Positions 1 through 36,009 of a stretch of DNA of 64,000 nucleotides are shown piece after piece; position 1 is the first letter of the stretch; every line of letters begins with the position of its first letter. The stretch is taken from contig JABAQJ010000007.1 in the NCBI GenBank assembly GCA_019186945.1, positions 124,001 to 188,000 of the forward strand, written 5' to 3'. The notes below the pieces were generated by a model, which made no database searches, had not been told where the DNA came from, and was given only the letters and a program-made list of their open reading frames with translations. Source of the DNA: Gemmatimonadaceae bacterium. Its GTDB lineage: Bacteria > Gemmatimonadota > Gemmatimonadetes > Gemmatimonadales > Gemmatimonadaceae. A program made the position numbers and the translations under genes.

Positions 1-126
1 CTGGACGGTGACAGGCACCGCGTCCACTACCTGCGCCGCCCCTTCCAGCGCGAGCCCGACTTCGGGGTGACGAGCGTGAACTACGACTTCGCCGAGCTGT
101 TGGCGCGGGCGGAGGCGCCCCGGTGA
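1..126 (+). CDS. C-terminal tail of an unidentified protein (5' end outside window)
   Basis: An open frame enters at base 1 and ends at TGA 124-126, giving 41 residues that end FAELLARAEAPR. The next gene begins only a few bases later on the same strand, so this is probably the gene preceding the DUF4143 ATPase in the same defence-type operon. Methylase/DUF499 islands often carry a helicase or nuclease upstream, but no motif in this tail identifies the protein and no function is assigned. Confidence 0.55.
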   Translation: MDGDRHRVHYLRRPFQREPDFGVTSVNYDFAELLARAEAPR

Positions 127-127
127 A

Positions 128-1407
128 GTGGTAGCAATACCGGCGCGGTATGATTATCATACCGCCATGGAAGCAGCTTCTTCCAGGACCCTGCTGCCCC
201 GCGCGGCCCGCCACCCGCTCGCCGATGCCCTGCGTGTGATGCCGGTGGTCGTGGTGCTCGGCGCACGCCAGACGGGCAAGACGACGCTGGTTCGTTCCTT
301 CCCGGAGCTGGCGGCGCGCCCGTACTTCACGCTCGACGATATGGACGTGCGATTGCACGCTGAGGCCGACCCCGAGGCCTTGGTATCCCGCGCGCCCAGA
401 CTCGTGCTCGACGAGGTGCAGCGCGCCAAGGGGCTGCTCATCGCCATCAAGCGGGCCGTGGATCAAGATCGCCCCCGGCGGCCGGGCCGATTCGTCCTGA
501 CCGGGTCCGCGAACCTGCTCATGCTGCGGGAGATCGGCGAAACCTTGGCCGGGCGGGCCTCCTACGTGACGCTGTGGCCGATGACGACCCGAGAGCTCGC
601 CGGAGCTGGGCGCACGGGTCTCTGGAGCGAGCTGCTCGCGGCCCCCGCGCCGCAGTGGCGCGACGTCCTCGAGGGCACGGATCGCGCCCCGGTGGACTGG
701 CGCGAGGCCGTGCTTCAGGGTGGGTTCCCGATCCCAGCCCACGAGCTGGCGACGCCCGAAGCACGAGCGCTCTGGTTTTCCGGGTACGTGCAGACGTACC
801 TGGAACGCGACCTCCCGGAGCTGCGCGCAGTGGAGAACCTGGCGGACTTCCGCCGTCTGGCGCAAGCAGCCTGCCTGCGCGTGGGTTCGCTGCTGAATCA
901 GGCCGAGCTCGGTCGCGACGTCGGCCTGAGCCAGCCGCAGGTCCACCGCTTCCTGAATGTGCTCGAAGCGAGCTTTCTCGCCGTGCGCCTGCCAGCCTTC
1001 ACGGTCAACCGCACCAAGCGGCTCATCAAGGCGCCCAAGATCTACTGGTGCGACACCGCACTCTCGATGCACTTGAGCGGCGATTCCGAGCCTCGTGGCG
1101 CACAGCTCGAGAATCTCGTGCTGCTCGATCTGTTCGCCTGGCGCGACCTCGCGGTGCCGAAGCCGGAGGTACTGTACTGGCGCACCGCCGACGGGACCGA
1201 GGTGGACTTCGTGATTGAGACGGCAAAGCGTCTGTTGCCCATCGAGGTGAAAACGTCCGCCCGCGCGCTGCCGGCGGATGCGAAGGGGCTGGAGACCTTT
1301 CTCGACGAGTACGGTAATCGCAGCGACGGCGGGCTCCTGCTCTACGGCGGCCACGAGGTCTTTCCCCTGACCCGCCGGGTCCTGGCCGCGCCCTGGTGGA
1401 GGGTACT

Positions 1408-1411
<4 letters not shown>
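128..1411 (+). CDS. AAA_14/DUF4143 ATPase (first copy)
   Basis: An ATPase of the AAA_14 + DUF4143 family, 427 residues from GTG 128 or 414 from ATG 167. The N-terminal half has a Walker A motif (GARQTGKT, residues 45-52 counted from GTG 128) and a Walker B-like LVLDEVQ. The C-terminal half has the DUF4143 nuclease-like signature, EVDF followed by PIEVK, resembling the D-x(n)-ExK core of PD-(D/E)XK enzymes. ATG 167 directly follows a perfect palindrome (145-165) and is a plausible start without an upstream ribosome site; GTG 128 would translate through the palindrome. The gene overlaps the next (its TGA overlaps GTG 1408), so the two are probably translationally coupled. Family members are common in bacteria and archaea and their role is poorly known; involvement in defence here is inferred from neighbours. 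Confidence 0.88.
137..165. promoter_or_regulatory. Palindromic operator-like site before the first DUF4143 ATPase
   Basis: Bases 145-165 form a perfect palindrome with arms GCGGTATGAT and ATCATACCGC around a single central T. An extra ATACCG at 137-142 faces CGGTAT at 146-151, so the hexamer occurs three times in alternating orientation (137-142, 146-151, 159-164). The site ends one base before ATG 167. This is the architecture expected of a repressor or autoregulatory binding site; the binding protein is unknown. Confidence 0.6.
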
Positions 1412-4314
<2,903 letters not shown>

Positions 4315-4390
4315 GCCATGTCGCGGCCGGGCGAGCCTGTCCGGCGCGTGGGATGGCCTCACGATCGACGATCTTGCTTGTTGACCATGA

Positions 4391-4415
4391 CGCCAAATTT
4401 ACCGTAAATTTGGCG
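4391..4415. promoter_or_regulatory. 25-bp perfect palindrome before the second DUF4143 ATPase
   Basis: Arms CGCCAAATTTAC (4391-4402) and GTAAATTTGGCG (4404-4415) are exact reverse complements around one central C at 4403. The palindrome ends three bases before ATG 4419. It is strikingly AT-rich for this region. Position and geometry match the site before the first DUF4143 ATPase, although the sequence differs, which suggests a family-specific regulatory or recognition element. Confidence 0.65.
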
Positions 4416-4418
4416 ACG

Positions 4419-5573
4419 ATGTTTGCACGCACCCTTGAGCTGCCGCGCGGGGCCTTCTTCCTGTTCGGCCCGCGCGGCACCGGCAAAAGCACGTGGATTC
4501 GCCAGCGACTGGGCGACGCACTGCTCGTCAACCTGCTCCAGCCGGAGAACGCCCTGCGCCTGGAGCGCGAGCCGGCGCTGTTCCGCGCCCAGGCGCTCGC
4601 GCGGCAGAAGTCGGACTGGATCGTGGTGGATGAGATACAGCGAGTGCCCGCACTCCTGGACGAGGTGCATATCCTGATGGAGCAGGGCTATCGCCGCTTC
4701 GCCCTGACCGGCTCCTCGGCGCGCAAACTCCGACGCGGGGCCGCGAACCTCCTGGCCGGGCGCGCGGTGCTGCGCACGCTCTTCCCCCTCACGGCGCCCG
4801 AAGTCGACTTCTCGGTGCCGGCGGCGCAGCGCCTGCGGTTCGGATCAATGCCGCTCAGCGTCACGGCGGCAAACGACCACGCCCGCGAGGACTTCCTGCG
4901 CGCCTTTGTCACCACCTACCTCGCGGAGGAAATCCGCGCCGAAGGACTGGTGCGCAACCTGGGCAGCTTCAGCCGCTTTCTGGATGTTGCCGCGCTTGCC
5001 GCCGGGCAGACGACCAACGTCTCGGCCGTTTCGCGCGATGCGGGCGTGTCGCGCGAAACGGCGCGCGGCTATTTCGATATCCTCGTCGACACGCTGATCG
5101 GTGACTGGCTCCCTGCGTACCGTCCGCGTGCCAAGGTCAAGGAAGTGGCGCAGCCCAAGTTCTACTGGTTCGACCCGGGCGTGTTGCACGCCGCTGCCGG
5201 CGGGTTCGATCAGCCGCTGCCCTCGGATTTCGACGGCGTCCTGCTCGAACATCTGGTGCTGCATGAACTGAAGGCCTACGTGCACTATCATGACCTGAAG
5301 GGATCGCTCGGCTATTGGGCCACGCCGAGCGGCGGCGAGGTTGATTTTGTCTGGTGGCGCGGCACCACGATGACGGCCATCGAGGTGAAGGCAGGACGTC
5401 GCTTTCGCCAGGAGTACCGGGCTGGCATCCGCTCACTCGGAACCGGATTCAAGGGCACACTGCGCAGTTGGATCGTTTATCGGGGCACTGAGGAGTTAAA
5501 GGTTGACGGAACGTGGGTACTGCCGGTGGAAGCATTTCTCGAGCGACTGCACGACGGCGACATACTCGGATAG
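4419..5573 (+). CDS. AAA_14/DUF4143 ATPase (second copy)
   Basis: A 384-residue ATPase starting at ATG 4419 just after a 25-bp palindrome; the frame is open further upstream, but that part overlaps the methylase gene and reads through the palindrome, so it is unlikely to be coding. Walker A is GPRGTGKS (residues 17-24), with a Walker B-like WIVVDEIQ. The C-terminal DUF4143 part ends with EVDFVWW and AIEVKAG, again resembling a PD-(D/E)XK nuclease core. It shares domain order with the 128-1411 protein but the sequences differ widely, so they are paralogues rather than a recent duplication. It lies between the methylase and the DUF499 gene on the same strand. Its role is unknown; it may be regulatory, nucleolytic, or a passenger of the island. 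Confidence 0.88.
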   Translation: MFARTLELPRGAFFLFGPRGTGKSTWIRQRLGDALLVNLLQPENALRLEREPALFRAQALARQKSDWIVVDEIQRVPALLDEVHILMEQGYRRFALTGSSARKLRRGAANLLAGRAVLRTLFPLTAPEVDFSVPAAQRLRFGSMPLSVTAANDHAREDFLRAFVTTYLAEEIRAEGLVRNLGSFSRFLDVAALAAGQTTNVSAVSRDAGVSRETARGYFDILVDTLIGDWLPAYRPRAKVKEVAQPKFYWFDPGVLHAAAGGFDQPLPSDFDGVLLEHLVLHELKAYVHYHDLKGSLGYWATPSGGEVDFVWWRGTTMTAIEVKAGRRFRQEYRAGIRSLGTGFKGTLRSWIVYRGTEELKVDGTWVLPVEAFLERLHDGDILG

Positions 5574-8500: not shown

Positions 8501-8947
8501 GGTGGGCAGGTTGTGTCGCTGTCAGCGGAGAGCGCGGGGCTGCTGGTGAAGCCGGATGTCGCGCGGAAACAGATGGATGCCGAAGCGCCGGCGGCGGCAC
8601 CCGGGGGCGAAGCGGACGGCGAGCCCGGAAATGGAGCGATGCCTCCGGGATCGGCCGCGCCGGCTGCCGGTGGCGACGGGACCGTCGGCACTGCGACCAC
8701 GGCGTCACCGTTGCCGCGCCGGTTCCACGGGACCGTGCGGCTCGACGCCGCGCGCGTCGGCCGCGACGCCAGCCGCATCGCCGACGAGGTGATCGCCCAC
8801 CTCGTCGGACAGGTCGGCGCCGAGGTCACGGTCACCCTCGACATCGAGGCGACGCTGCCCGGCGGTGCATCCGATCAGATCGTCCGCACGGTGACGGAAA
8901 ACAGCCGGACGTTGAAGTTCACGAGTCACGGCTTCGAGACCGAGTAG
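5597..8947 (+). CDS. Swt1-HEPN/DUF499 ATPase
   Basis: An 1116-residue protein starting at ATG 5597. Residues 1 to about 125 resemble a Swt1-type HEPN domain and contain RNKWAH (R95-x4-H100), the Rx4-6H motif of HEPN ribonucleases. The rest is the DUF499 ATPase, with Walker A NFGGGKTH (about 247-254) and Walker B CLVLIDEW (about 357-364). After a Gly/Ala/Pro linker the last 75 residues form a separate C-terminal domain (RFHGTVRLD to the end). DUF499 proteins co-occur with DUF1156 methylases in predicted defence systems, where the methylase is thought to mark self DNA and the ATPase to act on invaders; that role is inferred, not shown. The HEPN motif suggests an RNase effector. A decayed copy of the C-terminal domain lies at 34731-35014. 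Confidence 0.9.
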   Translation: MAITNQERVGKAMELLRAGIAPYVEREVQSAVKAGWVHMDAIRRFADDPMLGRKAIAEWDVAGVLKLMWETWNDVFARTLGRAERSLVQELRDCRNKWAHQEKFTSDDADRALDSMTRLLAAVSAPQADEVNTMKRELRRLTYDEQVRNEKRKAGGSLIEATATGTLKPWREIVTPHADVASGRYQQAEFAADLWQVHLGEGSDEYREPQEFFRRTYLTESLKRLLVGGVQRLSGKGGDPVVQLQTNFGGGKTHSMLALYHLFSGANPRELAGVDAVMADAGVKSLPSAKRVVLVGNKISPGNPVTKPDGTVVRTLWGELAYQLGGKQAFARVRADDEKATNPGDALRKLFKEYGPCLVLIDEWVAYARQLHDQSDLPAGGFETQFTFAQALTESAKLAGNCLLVISLPASDTQGSPHTQADDAEVGGIRGREALERLRNVVGRVESSWRPATAEEGFEIVRRRLFEPLAGPDAFKQRDVTARAFAELYRAQSAEFPPECRGGDYEKRIQAAYPIHPEIFDRLYTDWSTLVKFQRTRGVLRLMAAVIHSLWEKGDRNPLILPPTIPIDDGRVQSELTRYLSDNWAPIIEKDVDGPSSLPLKIDSDQPNLGKLHATRRVARTIYLGSAPTTAAAHRGLEDRRVKLGCVMPGESPAVFGDALRRLAAAATYLYQDGPRFWYATQPTVTKLAEDRAEQMKRDPDKVAEELDRRMRADLNKTGDFSRIHPLPRSGADVPDDLDARLVVLPAEHPHTKEPGSAAEVAARAILESRGNTPRLYRNTLVFLAADKVRLQDLDEALRRFLAWQSILAEKDALNLDPHQVRQAETQKLAADGAVTARLPETYQWLIVPEQANPQAPIAWQAVRLSGSDALAARASKRLRNDELLVTSLGSTILRKHLDEVPLWRGADVPVRQLVEDFARYLYLPRLAGSDVLVQAICDGVALLTWQADTFAYAESRDERAGRYPGLRGGQVVSLSAESAGLLVKPDVARKQMDAEAPAAAPGGEADGEPGNGAMPPGSAAPAAGGDGTVGTATTASPLPRRFHGTVRLDAARVGRDASRIADEVIAHLVGQVGAEVTVTLDIEATLPGGASDQIVRTVTENSRTLKFTSHGFETE

Positions 8948-8981
8948 GGAGGCGTGTGACCCCTTGCAAGAAGCAGCAGGC

Positions 8982-9041
8982 GCCTAACGACAGGTGCAGC
9001 GGAGGGCGCTGCGCGCTGCCCGCTGGTGTTTAGTGTTAGCT
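8982..9041 (+). repeat. attC-like imperfect palindrome (possible integron recombination site)
   Basis: The 60-bp element begins GCCTAAC (8982-8988, fits the RYYYAAC R'' consensus) and ends GTTAGCT (9035-9041, one base off GTTRRRY). Between them CAGCGG and CCGCTG form an inner stem with unpaired bases and a GC-rich centre, as in integron attC sites. It lies 34 bp after the DUF499 stop and 45 bp before a broken PIN gene, the arrangement expected between two cassettes. No integrase gene or clear second attC was seen, and GCCTAACG is frequent throughout the window, so the call is tentative. Confidence 0.4.
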
Positions 9042-9086
9042 GTCCAGCGAGCCTTCCGCCGGGATTGACCGGCGCGCGCGCAAGAC

Positions 9087-9577: not shown

Positions 9578-10987
9578 TCAACGTCCGATTCGCGCGCCGA
9601 CGGCGCGGGCGATCGCCTGAGCGACCGAATCCTGCAGTGCGAACATCGAGGTGATGGATCCTTCGAAAGCGCCGACCCAGAGTGTCGAATCCGCCGTCAC
9701 GCTGTAGAGACGGGGCAGGATGCGCACCCGATCTCGCTCGCGTTGCACCGTGGCTTCGAGAATCAGGTCAGCGCGTGTGCGAAAGAGCGAGTCAGTGGAG
9801 GCTGAGTCCGCGCCAGGACGTGTGGTGACACGCAAGCCACCGATCCGAGCCAGGGCATTGGTGACTTGCGACGTCAGGCCAATGGACGCCGCCTCTGCCG
9901 CGGCATCCCGGCCGACCGCGACGAACGGTGCCACCTCGATCGCCGCTCCAGTCAGCGCGGGCGTGACCGGCGATTCCCGGGTGTCGAGTGAGCGCCATAC
10001 GAAGGGCGTCGTGGCGGCAAACGCGATCAGCGCGACGGCCGACCAGCTGGCGATTCGGCGGCCGGTCCAGGACGCGCGTGCCGGCGAGACGAAATCGCCG
10101 CTCGTCACGTCCGGGGATTCGAGCATTCGCAACAGTTCGGTCGCGGTCCTGGGACGTTGGGCCGGCTCCTTCTCCAGGCATCGCATGACGATCGCGGCGA
10201 GTGGGGGTGGCACGTCCGAGCGTCGCGATCTGACGGGTGGTGCAGGCTGCGACAGCTGTGCGGCCAGCAGTTGCGCAGGCGTGGCAGCGTGGAACGGCGG
10301 TGCGCCGGCGAGCATCTCGTAGGCCACGATGCCAAGCGCGTATATGTCCGCGCGGTGATCCACTTGCGGATCGGCGGCAACCTGCTCGGGCGCCATGTAG
10401 GCTGGCGTGCCTAACGTCACACCGGCTCCCGTCAGCGTATTCGCGCCCGGCACGCCCGGCGGCAAGTCGCGCGGACGCAGCGGCCGGCCGGTCCGCGCCT
10501 GGTCGATCGCCTTGGCCACGCCGAAGTCGGTTACCACGGCTGCACCGCCCGCCAGCATCACGTTGTCCGGCTTGATGTCCCGGTGGACGACGCCGCGCGC
10601 ATGCGCGAACGCCAGGGCGCTAAGGACGTCCTTGCACACCGCCACGGTCTCGCGCACGGAGAGAGGTCCCCGGATGAGGCGTGCGCGCAGCGACTCCCCT
10701 TCGATGAATGGCATCACGAAGTAGGGGAGCCCATCCACCTCACCAGACGTCAACACGGGAACGATGTGCGGGTGCTGCAACCCGGCTGCGAGCATGATCT
10801 CCCGGCGGAAACGCTCCACGGAAAGAGTTGCCGTCAGCGTAGACGGAAGCACCTTGAAGACGACGCGCCGCGACAGCTGGCGATCGAACGCGACGAAGAC
10901 ACGGGACATGCCGCCACCGCCGAGTTCCCGCTCGATGGTACACCAGTCCTGCACGTGGGCGCTCAATTGCGCGACCAGGTCGGTCAT
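9578..10987 (-). CDS. Membrane-anchored Ser/Thr protein kinase
   Basis: A eukaryotic-type kinase of 469 residues from ATG 10987 (the frame is open upstream to 11083, but the kinase domain starts naturally here). It has the glycine-rich loop ELGGGGMSRV, the lysine in VVFKVL (K45), catalytic HRDIKPDN (about 136-142), DFG (about 154-156) and the APE motif in YMAPEQV. After the kinase domain one hydrophobic helix (SAVALIAFAATTPFVW) precedes about 130 residues predicted to be extracytoplasmic, containing VTNALARIGGLRVTTRPGA. This layout, with a FlgO/TolB-like sensor-type C-terminus, is typical of Gemmatimonadota and Acidobacteria. It follows the DUF4403 gene on the same strand with a 113-bp gap. 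Substrates are unknown. Confidence 0.92.
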   Translation of the reverse strand: MTDLVAQLSAHVQDWCTIERELGGGGMSRVFVAFDRQLSRRVVFKVLPSTLTATLSVERFRREIMLAAGLQHPHIVPVLTSGEVDGLPYFVMPFIEGESLRARLIRGPLSVRETVAVCKDVLSALAFAHARGVVHRDIKPDNVMLAGGAAVVTDFGVAKAIDQARTGRPLRPRDLPPGVPGANTLTGAGVTLGTPAYMAPEQVAADPQVDHRADIYALGIVAYEMLAGAPPFHAATPAQLLAAQLSQPAPPVRSRRSDVPPPLAAIVMRCLEKEPAQRPRTATELLRMLESPDVTSGDFVSPARASWTGRRIASWSAVALIAFAATTPFVWRSLDTRESPVTPALTGAAIEVAPFVAVGRDAAAEAASIGLTSQVTNALARIGGLRVTTRPGADSASTDSLFRTRADLILEATVQRERDRVRILPRLYSVTADSTLWVGAFEGSITSMFALQDSVAQAIARAVGARIGR

Positions 10988-11099
10988 GATAGCGGTGTGG
11001 ACACGTGTAACAGTAGCATCGTTACCGCAGTGGGACGAAAGACGAGGCGCGCGGGCTGTACCGAATCGTTCAGCGAAAACCACACGGCAGGCGCCGGTT

Positions 11100-19984: not shown

Positions 19985-21415
19985 ATGAATATCTGTCGAG
20001 TCGGAGTGTCGATCGTGTTCCTGTCGCTGCTGGGGCGCGGCGCGGCGGCGCAGGATCGCACGTTGTCGCCAGCGGTGCGCGGTTTCGCGTCGGTGACGGC
20101 GCAGACGGTCGCCCTGACGCACGTCAAGGTGCTCGACGGCACGGGCGCTCCGGCGCGTGCCGACCAGACGATCGTGATCAGCGGTGATGCGATCCAGGCG
20201 ATCGGGCGCACGGGCGAGGTCGCCATACCGGCAGGCGCGCAGGTGTTGGATCTGGCGGGGCACACGGCCATCCCCGGTCTCGTCGGGCTGCACGATCACA
20301 TGTACTATTCGTCGGCGGCCGGCGGTTCGATGAAGATGATGCTGCAGAGCTACCCGCGCCTTTTCCTGGGCGCCGGCGTGACCACGATCCGTACGGCGGG
20401 CAGCACGGACTCGTATCAGGAGCTGAACCTCAAGGCGCGGATCGACGGAGGGATGGCTCCCGGGCCCACGTTGTTCGTTACCGGCCCCTACCTGCAGGGC
20501 CCTGGTCCCGGACCCGGCGCCATGCACCCGCTGACCGGCCCGGACGACGCGCGGCGCACGGTGCGCTACTGGGCGGAAGAGGGCGTAACGTGGTTCAAGG
20601 CTTACACGCAGATCTCGCGGGAGGATCTTGGCGCTGCGATCGCGGAGGCGCACAAGCACAACGTCAAGGTAACGGCACACCTGTGCTCGGTAGGTTATCG
20701 GGAAGCGGTCGCGTTAGGCATCGACAACCTCGAACACGGGATGTTCGCCAATACCGAGTATTACCGGAACAAGCAGCCCGACGTGTGCCCGACGGCGGGA
20801 GACAGCGCCATTTTCGCCGAAGCCAGCCTCGATAACCCGGACGTGCAACGCACGATCCGGGAGATGGTGGAGCACAAGGTGTCCCTTACGTCGACACTGG
20901 CGGTGTACGAAACTTCGACGCCGTCGCGGGTAGCGTACGACGCGCGCGTGATCGATGCGCTACTTCCGGACGCGGCACATGCCGTGGCCAAGTGGTACGC
21001 CGATGCGCCGAAAGCCAGGGATGCCGTTGGAAGGGCTGTACTCCAGAAGACGATGGCCTTCGAGCGCGCTTTCTATCAGGCCGGCGGACTGCTCGGCGCC
21101 GGTTCCGATCCGTGTTGTCTCCACGTGATCGCGGGCTATGGCGACCAGCGAAACTACGAGCTGTTGATCGAAGCTGGCTTCGCGCCGGAGGAAGCGGTGC
21201 AGGTGATGACGCTGAACGGGGCACGTGTCCTGGGGATCGAGAAGACGGTTGGCAGCCTGGCGCCGGGCATGCGTGCAGATATCGTGATTCTGAGTGGCGA
21301 TCTGACGGCCTCTCCCGCCACCATCAGGAATACGGTCACGGTCTTCAAGAACGGTGTTGGCTTCGACTCCCGGAAGCTGATCGCCAGCGTCAAGGGGCAG
21401 GTCGGACTGAAGTAG
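19985..21415 (+). CDS. Secreted amidohydrolase (imidazolonepropionase-like)
   Basis: A 476-residue enzyme from ATG 19985 with GGGGAGAG upstream and a signal peptide ending GRGAAAQ. It is a metal-dependent hydrolase of the amidohydrolase superfamily: HDH at about 103-105 (GLHDHMYY), then VTAHLCS, NLEHGMF and GAGSDP supply the remaining expected ligands. The lysine in WFKAYTQ is the candidate for a carbamylated bridge. The C-terminus (VGSLAPGMRADIVILSGD) is the usual small beta domain. Substrate is unknown; export suggests an extracellular amide, lactam or dipeptide. Probably co-transcribed with the multicopper oxidase upstream. Confidence 0.9.
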   Translation: MNICRVGVSIVFLSLLGRGAAAQDRTLSPAVRGFASVTAQTVALTHVKVLDGTGAPARADQTIVISGDAIQAIGRTGEVAIPAGAQVLDLAGHTAIPGLVGLHDHMYYSSAAGGSMKMMLQSYPRLFLGAGVTTIRTAGSTDSYQELNLKARIDGGMAPGPTLFVTGPYLQGPGPGPGAMHPLTGPDDARRTVRYWAEEGVTWFKAYTQISREDLGAAIAEAHKHNVKVTAHLCSVGYREAVALGIDNLEHGMFANTEYYRNKQPDVCPTAGDSAIFAEASLDNPDVQRTIREMVEHKVSLTSTLAVYETSTPSRVAYDARVIDALLPDAAHAVAKWYADAPKARDAVGRAVLQKTMAFERAFYQAGGLLGAGSDPCCLHVIAGYGDQRNYELLIEAGFAPEEAVQVMTLNGARVLGIEKTVGSLAPGMRADIVILSGDLTASPATIRNTVTVFKNGVGFDSRKLIASVKGQVGLK

Positions 21416-31318: not shown

Positions 31319-34300
31319 ATGCTGATTTCCGATTTTGCAATCAAGCGGCCGCTGATCACGGTCGTGGCGATGTTGACGCTGGCGATCTTCGGTCTGTTCG
31401 CGCTGATCAACCTGCAGACCGACGAGTTCCCGGATGTGGCTCCGCCGATGGTGACCGTCGGGCTGGTGTATCCGGGCGCATCGCCAGACGGCGTGGAGCG
31501 CGAGATCCTCGACCCGATCGAGGAGGCGCTCGCCGGCATTGCCGGTGTGAAGAAGGTGATGGGCGCGGCGCAGGACGGTTTCGCGAGCATCATGGTCGAG
31601 TTCCAGTTCTCGAAGCCGCTGGCGGAGGCTACCCAGGATATCCGCGACGCAATCTCCGGAATCCGGTCGGACCTTCCGCCCGAGATGGAGGAGCCGATCA
31701 TCAAGAAGTTCAACGACACGGACCGTCCGATCGTGTCGCTGGCGCTGTCGTCGACGACGCTGAGCGCCGGCGAGCTGACGCGGCTCGCGGACCCCGGGAT
31801 GACGCGCGAGCTGCGATCCATTCCCGGCGTGGCGGAAGTGACCGTTCCGGGGAAGGTGGAACGCGAGCTGACGGTACAGATCCGTCCCGATGGGTTGCAG
31901 GCGGCGGGGATCGGCGTTGGCCAGGTCGTGCAGGCGTTGCAGCTGCAGAACCTGGCGGCACCGATCGGCAGCATCAAGGGCACGCTCGACGAGCGTTCGA
32001 TCCGTTTGCGCGGCCGGCTGTCCGATCCTCAGGAGTTCGCTCAGATCGTGGTGGCCGAGCGGAACGGACAGCTCGTGCGGCTGGGGCAGGTCGCCGACGT
32101 GCTGGACTCGACGGAAGAGCCCCGAACCGGGGCTTACTTCAATGGCCGCGAGGCAGTGGGCATCGATATCAAGAAATCGATTGGGTACAGTACCACGTCG
32201 GTGGCGTCCCAGGTGCTGGAGCGGGTCGAGACGATCCGGGCGACGTTGCCGCCTGGCACGACGCTCGACGTGGTGAAGAACAGCGGACAGCGCGTGGAGC
32301 GCGCCGTGGCCAACGTGAAGGTGGCGCTGCTCGAGGGCGCCGTGCTGACGGTCTTCGTGGTCTTTCTCTTCCTGAATTCGTGGCGATCGACGGTGATCAC
32401 GGGCCTGGCATTGCCTGTCTCGGTCCTCGCGTCGTTCATCGCTGTATGGGCCCTGGGCTTCAAGCTCGAGACGATGTCGCTCCTCGGGCTGTCGCTCGCC
32501 ATCGGCATTCTGATCGACGATGCGATCGTCGTCCGGGAAAACATCGTACGACACGTGGAGATGGGAAAGGACCACTACACGGCATCGCACCAGGGCACGG
32601 ACGAGATCGGGCTGGCGGTGGCAGCGACAACGTTTTCGATCCTGGCGGTCTTCGTGCCGATCGCCTTCATGCCGGGCGTCGGCGGTCAGTGGTTCAAGCC
32701 GTTTGCGCTGACGATCGCCTGTTCGGTGTTCGTCTCGCTGTTCGTGTCGTTCTCGCTGGACCCGATGCTTTCCGCCTACTGGCCGGACCCGCATCGCCCC
32801 GAACACGAGAAGTGGTGGATCACGAAGCAGCTCGACAAGTTCAACCACTGGTTCAATCGTCAGGCGCAGAACTACAAGAGGGTCATTGCCTGGGCGCTGG
32901 ATCACCGGACGTCGGTGGTCGTTATTGCCGTGGGCACGTTCCTCGGGGCGTTCACGCTGCCCACCAAGGGCGTGACAGGACTCGCGGTCGCGGCGTTCGG
33001 GATCGGAGTGGCGCTGTTCCTGATTTCGCGGTCGACGCGCTGGGTTGGGCGATTGGGATCGATCGCGGCCGGCGTAGCTCTCGTCGCAGTACTGCTCCCA
33101 CGCGTTCCGGCATGGCATAACGTGGGCTTCGCCTTCGTGCCGGAAGACGACCAGTCCGAGATCAACGTGACCGTCGAGACTCCGCCCGGCTCCAACCTGG
33201 AGTACACGCGGCTCAAGGTGGACGAAGCGGCGAAGGTGGTGCAAGCGCACAAGGAAGTGCGCTACACGTATGCGACGATCGGCGGTGGGGCCGCAAGCGA
33301 CGTGGACAAGGCGTCGCTTTACGTGAAGCTGGTGCCGAAACACGAGCGGTCGATGAGCGTGACGCCATTCGCGGCCATCGTGCGGGAGGAGCTGAACCAG
33401 ATCGCGGGCGCGAGCATCTCGGTGCTGGCTGCCGACTGGGGAGGCGGGCGCAAGCAGGTGCAACTCGAGGTGCGCGGAAACGATCCGGTAGCGCTCAACG
33501 ACTTCGCGCAGCAGGCGTTTCAGGCGGTGCGGGCCGTCCCGGGTGCGGTGGACGTGGGGTTGTCGTCCAAGGGACAACGACCGGAGCTGACGGTAGAGCT
33601 CAACCGCGGACTGGCGAGCAGTCTTGGGCTCACGGTGGGACAGGTCGCGCAGGCGTTGCGTCCTGCGTTCGCCGGGATCGACGCCGGCGACTGGGTCGAT
33701 CCGAGCGGCGAGACGCGCGACGTCGTGGTGCGACTGGCGCCGGACGCGCGCCGCCGCGCGGCGGACCTTCGCCAGCTGCCACTCGTAGTGGCAGGCCCGA
33801 ACGGCTCCCCGGCAACGCTCCCGTTAGGCCAGGTGGCGACGATCAGCGATGGCGTTGGCCCGGCGGTGATCAACCACCTGAATCGCGATCGGAACGTGAT
33901 GATCGAGTTCAATACCGATGGCCGTTCCATGGGCGAAGTCACCAACGACGCGTTGGCGGCCGTGCTGGCGCTCAAGATCCCGAATGGCATCCGCGTCGCG
34001 AAGGGCGGAGAGGCGCAACAGCAGGGCGAGGTGTTCGGGCAGATCTTCTTCGCACTCGGCGTCGCCGTGATGTTGATGTACCTGATTCTCGTGATGCAGT
34101 TCGGCTCGTTCATCGACCCCATGGCCATCATGCTGTCCCTCCCGCTGTCGTTGATCGGCGTGCTGCTCTCGCTGGCGATCAGCGGTAACACGATCAATAT
34201 CATGAGTCTGATTGGCGTGATCCTGCTGATGGGGATCGTGGCGAAAAACGCCATCCTGCTGATCGACTTCGCCAAATGGGCGCGGGAGGAGCGTGGCTTG

Positions 34301-34612
34301 CCGCTTCGCGCGGCGCTGATCGAGGCGGGCGCGATCCGGTTGCGCCCGATCCTGATGACAACGTTCGCGCTGATCGCCGGCATGATCCCGGTGGCGTTAG
34401 GCCGCGGCGAGGGATCGCAGTTCCGGGCGCCGATGGGGATCGCCGTCATTGGCGGCGTCATCACATCGACGCTATTGACGCTGATTGCCATACCGACGTT
34501 CTACGAGATCCTCGACGAATGGAGGGCGGCGCTGGGGCAGAAGCTGGGCTTCCGTGTGAAGCAGAAGACGGCCGAGCATCGAGTGCCGGTGGGGGCGGTC
34601 GCCGGGGACTGA
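31319..34612 (+). CDS. RND multidrug efflux permease (AcrB/HAE1 family)
   Basis: A 1097-residue inner-membrane proton antiporter. It starts MLISDFAIKRPLITVVAM and has the acidic pair in transmembrane helix 4 (D400-D401 in GILIDDAIVV), with porter-domain landmarks ANVKVALLEGAVL and the second-half LIGVILLMGIVAKNAILLIDFAKW. It is about 50 residues longer than AcrB. The extra length lies at about residues 529-610, where three hydrophobic stretches occupy the place of the single TM7 segment. The gene follows the adaptor by 19 bp. Pumps of this type export drugs, solvents or bile-like compounds; the substrate is unknown. Confidence 0.93.
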   Translation: MLISDFAIKRPLITVVAMLTLAIFGLFALINLQTDEFPDVAPPMVTVGLVYPGASPDGVEREILDPIEEALAGIAGVKKVMGAAQDGFASIMVEFQFSKPLAEATQDIRDAISGIRSDLPPEMEEPIIKKFNDTDRPIVSLALSSTTLSAGELTRLADPGMTRELRSIPGVAEVTVPGKVERELTVQIRPDGLQAAGIGVGQVVQALQLQNLAAPIGSIKGTLDERSIRLRGRLSDPQEFAQIVVAERNGQLVRLGQVADVLDSTEEPRTGAYFNGREAVGIDIKKSIGYSTTSVASQVLERVETIRATLPPGTTLDVVKNSGQRVERAVANVKVALLEGAVLTVFVVFLFLNSWRSTVITGLALPVSVLASFIAVWALGFKLETMSLLGLSLAIGILIDDAIVVRENIVRHVEMGKDHYTASHQGTDEIGLAVAATTFSILAVFVPIAFMPGVGGQWFKPFALTIACSVFVSLFVSFSLDPMLSAYWPDPHRPEHEKWWITKQLDKFNHWFNRQAQNYKRVIAWALDHRTSVVVIAVGTFLGAFTLPTKGVTGLAVAAFGIGVALFLISRSTRWVGRLGSIAAGVALVAVLLPRVPAWHNVGFAFVPEDDQSEINVTVETPPGSNLEYTRLKVDEAAKVVQAHKEVRYTYATIGGGAASDVDKASLYVKLVPKHERSMSVTPFAAIVREELNQIAGASISVLAADWGGGRKQVQLEVRGNDPVALNDFAQQAFQAVRAVPGAVDVGLSSKGQRPELTVELNRGLASSLGLTVGQVAQALRPAFAGIDAGDWVDPSGETRDVVVRLAPDARRRAADLRQLPLVVAGPNGSPATLPLGQVATISDGVGPAVINHLNRDRNVMIEFNTDGRSMGEVTNDALAAVLALKIPNGIRVAKGGEAQQQGEVFGQIFFALGVAVMLMYLILVMQFGSFIDPMAIMLSLPLSLIGVLLSLAISGNTINIMSLIGVILLMGIVAKNAILLIDFAKWAREERGLPLRAALIEAGAIRLRPILMTTFALIAGMIPVALGRGEGSQFRAPMGIAVIGGVITSTLLTLIAIPTFYEILDEWRAALGQKLGFRVKQKTAEHRVPVGAVAGD

Positions 34613-34634
34613 TCGGGCCTCGCTCCGTTCGCTG

Positions 34635-34733
34635 GCCCGAACACCCTGCGTGAGCACTTGTGCGCAGCGCCGTCGGCGTTGCGCCATTGTTCGGCAACTG
34701 CCGCCTCATAGCGGTCCTGGCGCCTGTTCGGGC
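34635..34733. repeat. Large imperfect inverted repeat beside the DUF499 remnant
   Basis: GCCCGAACA (34635-34643) and TGTTCGGGC (34725-34733) are perfect 9-bp reverse complements. Between them 34662-34684 forms an almost perfect hairpin (GCGCAGCGCCG against CGGCGTTGCGC). The overall size is in the range of attC sites, but the ends do not fit the RYYYAAC/GTTRRRY consensus. It may be a remnant of the element that carried the DUF499 fragment. Confidence 0.4.
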
Positions 34734-35014
34734 TTCGAATCCGTAAACGCTGAACTCGAGCGTCCAGCTGTTCCCGGTCACGCTGCGGACGATCTGATCC
34801 GAGGCACCACCAGGGAGCCTGCCTCGATTTCCAGGATCACCCTGACCTCGCCGCAGTCCGGGGTGGTGAGGTGCACGAGCACCTCTTCGGCGATGCGGCT
34901 GGCATCGAGTCGCCCGGTGCCGAAGAACCGAAGGTGCACCGGCTTCGCAGTTGCTTCCGCGCCCGTGGTGCCTGAAGTCCCGGCGCTGCCTCCGCTGTGC
35001 CGGTCATCGCCCAC
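34731..35014 (-). pseudogene. Decayed C-terminal fragment of a DUF499 ATPase gene
   Basis: On the minus strand LRFFGTGRLDASRIAEEVLVHL and a following VRVILEIEA match the C-terminal domain of the intact DUF499 protein (RFHGTVRLD, ASRIADEVIAHL, VTVTLDIEA), with about seven residues deleted in the middle. After a small indel near 34800-34810 the match moves to another frame and continues GASDQIVRSVTGNSWTLEFSVYGFE, against GASDQIVRTVTENSRTLKF. A Gly/Ser/Thr/Ala linker precedes the domain in both. No ATPase part is left. It sits between the RND gene and a DedA-like gene. Confidence 0.75.
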
Positions 35015-35328
35015 TACTGCACCCGTTCGTGTGCGAGCGACCCCTTCTCATGTCCGGCGACCCTCTGGGGACTTGTTTCGACGCCCGTGGCGCTCGGCCG
35101 CCACGGACGAGCGTCTCGTAACGCATAACGAGGTATCGGCCGTCGAGGAAGGTCAAGGAGCGGCGTCCGGACGCGCAGACTCCCTGCCGGAAGGCCCATT
35201 ATCGTGACAGCCAATACTCCGTCTGGGCTGGCGGCGCCGCCACTCGTGACGTGGCGCGAATTGCGCGCTCGCGCGAAGCCAATCGCACCCGACTCCCGAA
35301 TCGGCTACCCTGTGCGGATCTTTCTGTC

Positions 35329-36009
35329 GTGACGTTACGACTGCTTCTCCTCCTTGCGGCTCTCGCGCCGCAGACGGTGCTCGCGCGACTCGAAGTATTC
35401 TGGGCGTACGTTACGCTTGGCGCGTCGGCCATCGTCACGGAGGAATTGGCGCCGCTCGTGGGTGGGTTCGCTGCCGAGCAGGGCCACTTGGGTTTCAAGC
35501 GCGCCGTGGTGGCGACTGCCGTGGGCGTATGGGTAGCGACCGCGCTGCTCTATTTCATCGGGCGATGGCGGGCTGCCTGGGTGCGCCTCAAGCTTCGCCG
35601 GTCGCCGATCGTGGTGCGCAAACTGTTGCGCGCGATGAGGTGGAACCCCTGGCGCAGTACGATTCTGGCTCGTTTCGTCTTCGGCGGGCGTGTCGCTGTT
35701 CCTCTGGCCTGTGGAGCGGCACACGTACCGATCTGGATCTTCCTCACGGGCAGCGCGATTGCGGCCTTCGCCTGGGCGTTGCTGTTCACGGCGTTAGGCT
35801 GGTTCTTCGGCGAAAGCGCCGTGCTGGTGATCGGTCATGTGCGCCGGTACGAAGACCAGCTGGCGCTGCTCCTGGTGGCGCTCGGACTGGCTGCGTTTCT
35901 GTGGCTGCGGCGGCGGCAGCGACGCTCCGGCCTCATCGACCCGGATGCGCCAACGCCGATCCCCCGGCTTCCGGAACGGAACACAGACGTGGACGAGGCG
36001 GCTCGCTAG
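35329..36009 (+). CDS. DedA/VTT-family membrane protein
   Basis: About 226 residues from GTG 35329; an in-frame start at 35251 is possible but would add a charged, arginine-rich leader before the first helix. It has four to five hydrophobic segments and the DedA-type core with a conserved arginine region (ILARFVFGGRVAVPLACGAAHVPIWIF). DedA proteins act in membrane lipid (undecaprenyl phosphate or phospholipid) transport and need proton motive force. The stop TAG at 36007-36009 lies in a CTAG that is also the stop of the opposing gene. Confidence 0.8.
   Translation: MTLRLLLLLAALAPQTVLARLEVFWAYVTLGASAIVTEELAPLVGGFAAEQGHLGFKRAVVATAVGVWVATALLYFIGRWRAAWVRLKLRRSPIVVRKLLRAMRWNPWRSTILARFVFGGRVAVPLACGAAHVPIWIFLTGSAIAAFAWALLFTALGWFFGESAVLVIGHVRRYEDQLALLLVALGLAAFLWLRRRQRRSGLIDPDAPTPIPRLPERNTDVDEAAR

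Follow-up and report, generated by a model that had tools for sequence, protein, structure and literature searches.

A short relic of the phage-defence gene hmaC lies in an intergenic gap of the window (the whole 64,000-nucleotide stretch of Gemmatimonadaceae DNA that was analysed). It is probably a non-functional copy of the 3' end of the resident hmaC gene, dead on arrival and neutrally decayed since. The relic comprises about 315 bases on the minus strand, 26 kb from the intact gene, and is a homologue of the C-terminal domain of HmaC. Although genuine, it is gene debris of an ordinary sort. The features discussed below are collected in Table 1.

Table 1 Coordinates of the hmaC relic, its resident counterpart and the neighbouring genes.
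Feature	Position in window	Strand	Evidence or remarks
hmaA, just upstream of hmaB	G000:C2:120482-124126 (end at window 1-126)		HmaA 1681 bits
hmaB, DUF1156 adenine methyltransferase, same operon as hmaC	1396..4314	+	PADLOC HmaB 1603 bits
Intact hmaC, HEPN_Swt1 + DUF499 ATPase, 1116 aa	5597..8947	+	PF18731, PF04465; PADLOC HmaC 1172 bits
Resident segment matching the relic	8708..9050	+	Alignment
RND efflux transporter (AcrB/CusA type), next to the relic	31319..34612	+	Pfam ACR_tran E=7e-254
Probable continuation of the copied segment past the hmaC end	34629..34733	-	Homologous to ~8945-9050
Relic of the hmaC C-terminal (RRM) coding part	34734..34942	-	Homologous to 8708-8941; blastn, tblastn, full alignment
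1-bp frameshift site	34816..34822	-	tblastn frames -1 to -3; alignment
21-bp deletion site relative to intact hmaC	34903..34910	-	Alignment
Possible remnant of the Gly/Ala-rich linker preceding the RRM	34943..35014	-	Weak support; 24/1586 windows score as high
VTT/DedA-domain membrane protein flanking the relic	~35329..36009	+	Pfam VTT_dom E=3e-11

The original prediction saw in this fragment a decayed DUF499 gene, here hmaC, and the searches agreed. The relic, read from 34942 to 34734, aligned with the last ~75 codons of intact hmaC at 76% DNA identity (133/174, blastn; 126 bits, E = 3e-32). When the HmaC protein was used as the query, tblastn split the match into two collinear pieces, one in frame -1 and the other in frame -3 (combined E = 1e-15), and a profile of the HmaC C-terminal domain matched both pieces (E 3e-6 and 4e-6). 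The similarity was far above chance level, as the core alignment scored 181, whereas dinucleotide shuffles averaged 26 +/- 4 and none of 300 scored as high. Across the 3.95-Mb genome, the relic was the sole further HmaC match besides the intact gene.

A deletion and a change of frame had also been foreseen, and both were found. In the intact sequence, the 21 bp missing from the relic are located between two GACGCC repeats; the frameshift is the loss of 1 bp after the IEA codons. With these disabling lesions, and with purifying selection gone (see below), the relic is a pseudogene; of hmaC, nothing but the last ~75 codons remains, in a broken frame, and the AAA+ core with its Walker A motif and the open frame of a working HmaC are absent. 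The predicted extent of 34731 to 35014 was right as to place and needed adjusting at both ends: clear coding homology spans 34734-34942, upstream of which there is only a weak match to the low-complexity linker, and on the downstream side homology probably reaches 34629. The region 34943-35328 was rejected as a homologue of the remaining hmaC, since nothing beyond the weak linker match was found there.

The intact counterpart belongs to a complete defence system. The Hma system consists of the helicase HmaA, the methylase HmaB and the ATPase HmaC (PADLOC; PMC8565338), and has also been named the Type-1 DUF499-centred BREX-related (BR) system (PMC12839542). At the start of the window, hmaA, hmaB and hmaC are all present in one operon, making the resident locus an Hma / Type-1 BR system. 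A HEPN_Swt1 domain was identified by Pfam at the N-terminus of HmaC. The C-terminal domain of the DUF499 ATPase has been assigned as RRM/ferredoxin-like (PMC12839542), and the RRM label used here rests on that assignment. The predicted structure of this domain (pLDDT 90, pTM 0.63) contained helices at 11-30 and 53-65 with extended stretches between them and no strands assigned, and a structure search with the model yielded no PDB fold match. Two AAA_14/DUF4143-type ATPases (PADLOC PDC-S01; window 128-1411 and 4044-5573), which share 28% identity over part of their length and fall outside the standard three-gene Hma operon, are interleaved among hmaA, hmaB and hmaC. Beside the operon, an ORF on the minus strand (9578-11083) matched PADLOC PD-T4-6 and related kinase models with E down to 6e-79, and its product is therefore probably a protein kinase.

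We then considered the surroundings of the relic, which had been described as an ordinary chromosomal context. This description was correct. The relic is inverted within a 716-bp gap between two unrelated membrane-protein genes, one belonging to an RND efflux operon and the other a VTT/DedA gene, whose start was placed from relatives by alignment to genome G025. In G025, which is from the same family, the RND and VTT genes are ~260 bp apart and there is no relic. The original prediction had suggested looking for a complete module at the syntenic site of close strains, and what this same-family genome has there is an empty site. In another genome (G113), a different small gene occupies the gap between the RND and VTT genes and the relic is absent. 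A comparison with 59 relatives showed no conservation of the gap sequence; its single match, of 36 bp in G031:C41, was rejected as spurious because it lies within an unrelated gene. A mobile-element, plasmid or phage origin of the gap was likewise rejected, as the plasmid and phage comparisons gave no match, and no insertion footprint (target-site duplication or IS) was found at the relic. Within the window, tblastn for HmaA and HmaB found the resident copies only and no piece of the remainder of HmaC was found near the relic, so that the set of HmaA and HmaB beside HmaC that defines an Hma / Type-1 BR system is missing at this site.

To characterize how the relic has evolved, 65 relic codons were aligned codon by codon to intact homologues, and the 46 differences between the relic and the resident gene were polarised using outgroups. 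Changes on the relic branch were spread over codon positions 1/2/3 as 9/13/10, whereas those on the intact-gene branch were distributed as 1/1/8 (Fisher, p = 0.003-0.007 across outgroup sets), and the result held with outgroup sets ranging in size from 5 to 40. Third positions accounted for 48% of the differences between relic and intact gene, compared with 68% (1st percentile 53%) for functional pairs of similar distance; given the functional-pair share of 0.68, the probability of so few third-position changes on the relic branch was < 1e-4. The dN/dS of the relic-intact pair was 0.40, against 0.03-0.10 for pairs of intact homologues. The even spread of changes on the relic branch, next to a constrained intact branch, indicates neutral decay of the relic throughout essentially all of the time since the two separated. 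A gene active for much of that time would be expected to carry a third-position excess on its branch, and the lack of one means that no functional phase is visible.

These results bear on the two origins that the original prediction had offered, a copied 3' fragment and a lost second module, and they favour the former. In the second reading, this site received a further Hma module or hmaC gene by independent acquisition, which worked for a while and was then lost except for its 3' tail. Hma systems are patchy and move between phyla (PMC8565338), and internally deleted hmaC remnants are known in other genomes (G159 and G246), both of which would suit such a history. A second working module is nevertheless less likely because no remnant of HmaA, HmaB or any other part of HmaC was detected nearby; in addition, no period of purifying selection is seen in the relic since its split from the resident lineage, the same-family genome has an empty site, and the DNA downstream of the relic resembles that of the resident gene. 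We consider this origin, the chief rival, doubtful, with some small probability left for a lost second copy of short duration. By synonymous distance the closest kin of the relic is the resident gene (lowest relic dS 0.54, with all others 0.60 or more). A tree of 195 columns joined the relic and the resident gene weakly (88/15.9). This placement was set aside as too weak to choose between duplication and sibling acquisition, and an independently acquired sibling hmaC is therefore retained as an alternative.

The downstream flank provides a further comparison between the relic and its possible source. Beyond the stop codon, in non-coding DNA, 34733-34629 aligned with ~8945-9050 at 77 of 99 identical bases (78%), collinear with the coding part, and the level of identity was unchanged across the stop. 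None of 300 dinucleotide shuffles gave as good a score for this alignment. Among 99 flanks tested apart from self, the resident downstream flank was the best (41.5, compared with 32.5 for the next), so the relic's 3' flank resembles it better than the downstream DNA of any other HmaC examined. The similarity is modest, a point against the copied-segment reading: when the relic flank was compared with every 257-bp window across the 64 kb, one other, unrelated place scored as high, and the region downstream of resident hmaC ranked as the second-best locus. We regard homology between the two flanks as probable rather than certain.

The same flank raised the idea that the tail arrived as an integron-type gene cassette or together with one, with an attC-like element following hmaC and a decayed version of it in the relic. 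Directly downstream of hmaC, an element at 8982-9039 reads GCCTAAC-N6-TGCAGCGGA ... GTTAGCT (GCCTAAC(G)...GTTAGCT in outline), and a counterpart aligns in the relic flank. The genome also encodes a genuine integron integrase, which scored 394.6 bits with TIGR02249 and so passed the cut-off, and has an attC-like site, both on another contig. However, the R'' box of the element lies within the octamer CGTTAGGC and is weak evidence, because this octamer is common all over the genome (834 copies). As single strands, the two elements did not fold better than shuffled sequences (short stretches, z -0.24 and -0.69), a stricter attC-like search found none there, and no cassette array surrounds either copy. 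With the R'' box overlapping an over-represented octamer and the folds not special, a cassette origin is considered very unlikely. The integrase itself is at G000:C13:19559-20488 (L208/L209), preceded ~1.2 kb before by a partial integrase duplicate, and the attC-like site is at C13:860-966.

The window contains 15 CGTTAGGC sites against 1.3 expected (for example at 20712, 33822, 34395 and 35792), and the 834 genomic copies compare with 290 for the reversed control. Same-family loci have 33.5 octamers per 100 kb, a density that drops to 1.3 for the class outside this family and to 0.4 for other phyla. The octamer often falls within genes, where it contributes a rare TTA codon. It is possibly a family-specific genome signal, such as an uptake, Chi or methylation site. 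An apparent strand polarity (70 forward and 30 reverse among the matches listed) was discounted, since it arises from the way in which the list is cut.

Taken together, four observations favour a copied 3' end: no selection phase is seen, the flank resembles the resident one, other Hma parts are lacking and a relative has the site empty. The lineage of the intact hmaC is the likely source, and we infer that the resident locus was the donor and that a single copying event produced the insertion. According to this model, a segment of at least ~340 bp, containing the last ~75 codons of hmaC and ~105 bp of downstream DNA, would have been copied from resident hmaC or from an ancestral or sibling copy very closely related to it, and inserted in inverted orientation into the gap between the RND efflux gene and the DedA/VTT gene. 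Without a start, the ATPase part or operon partners, the copy would have been dead from the beginning. Neutral decay would have come next, through substitutions spread evenly over codon positions, the 21-bp deletion between short direct repeats and the 1-bp frameshift.

Similar C-terminal-only pieces exist in other Gemmatimonadota, so that the relic belongs to a class of debris seen repeatedly. Stand-alone HmaC/DUF499 C-terminal pieces were found in G088, G159, G246, G213, G097, G269, G178, G122 and G066. G159 keeps both ends of the gene, a C-terminal and an N-terminal piece, with the middle lost; in G246 the C-terminal piece is accompanied by a middle piece of hmaC; and in G213, G097 and G269 the C-terminal pieces are second copies. 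Short-frame matches numbered ~10 for the C-terminal segment and 2 for an equally long segment from the middle of the protein, or ~6 and 1 events when related genomes were grouped. This 3' bias is suggestive only and not decisive, as related genomes share some pieces. Some of the C-terminal-only pieces are frame-intact (the set includes L163, L164, L165, L166, L196 10733-11110, L198 877-1251, L199, L200 and L201), and some may be young or perhaps used, because they still look codon-constrained.

This recurrence could be taken to mean that the relic is a functional small gene or RNA kept by selection, for instance a stand-alone RRM, an antisense or a regulatory element. The frame of the relic is broken within the domain, its codon pattern is neutral, its gap has no Rfam match and, as noted above, is not conserved among the relatives; a functional role is largely refuted and would be extremely improbable. 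It is also conceivable, if highly improbable, that the C-terminal HmaC pieces here and in ~8 other genomes form a silent reservoir of RRM recognition domains that changes the hypervariable ATPase C-terminus by recombination, in the manner of the orphan C-terminal modules of polymorphic toxins. For the damaged relic itself such a role is unlikely. The recurrence of 3' pieces is so far without another explanation.

As an isolated finding, a single dead piece of a widespread defence gene carries little weight. It is a clean example of how codon-position polarity can separate a dead-on-arrival copy from a lost working system, and the set of C-terminal-only pieces hints at repeated turnover of Hma in Gemmatimonadota in which 3' ends remain.

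Compared with known systems, the relic corresponds to one part of the Hma / Type-1 BR system, its homologue being the C-terminal domain of HmaC. Unlike that system, it has no ATPase, HEPN, methylase or helicase and its frame is broken, and it is not a system. By position and sequence it corresponds to the RRM/ferredoxin-like domain of DUF499 ATPases, but the domain has been destroyed by the 21-bp deletion and the frameshift. A further likeness is to ordinary bacterial pseudogene relics and partial gene duplicates, which are equally truncated, frameshifted, neutral in their substitutions and intergenic, and from which the relic differs in nothing except the identity of the gene that was copied.
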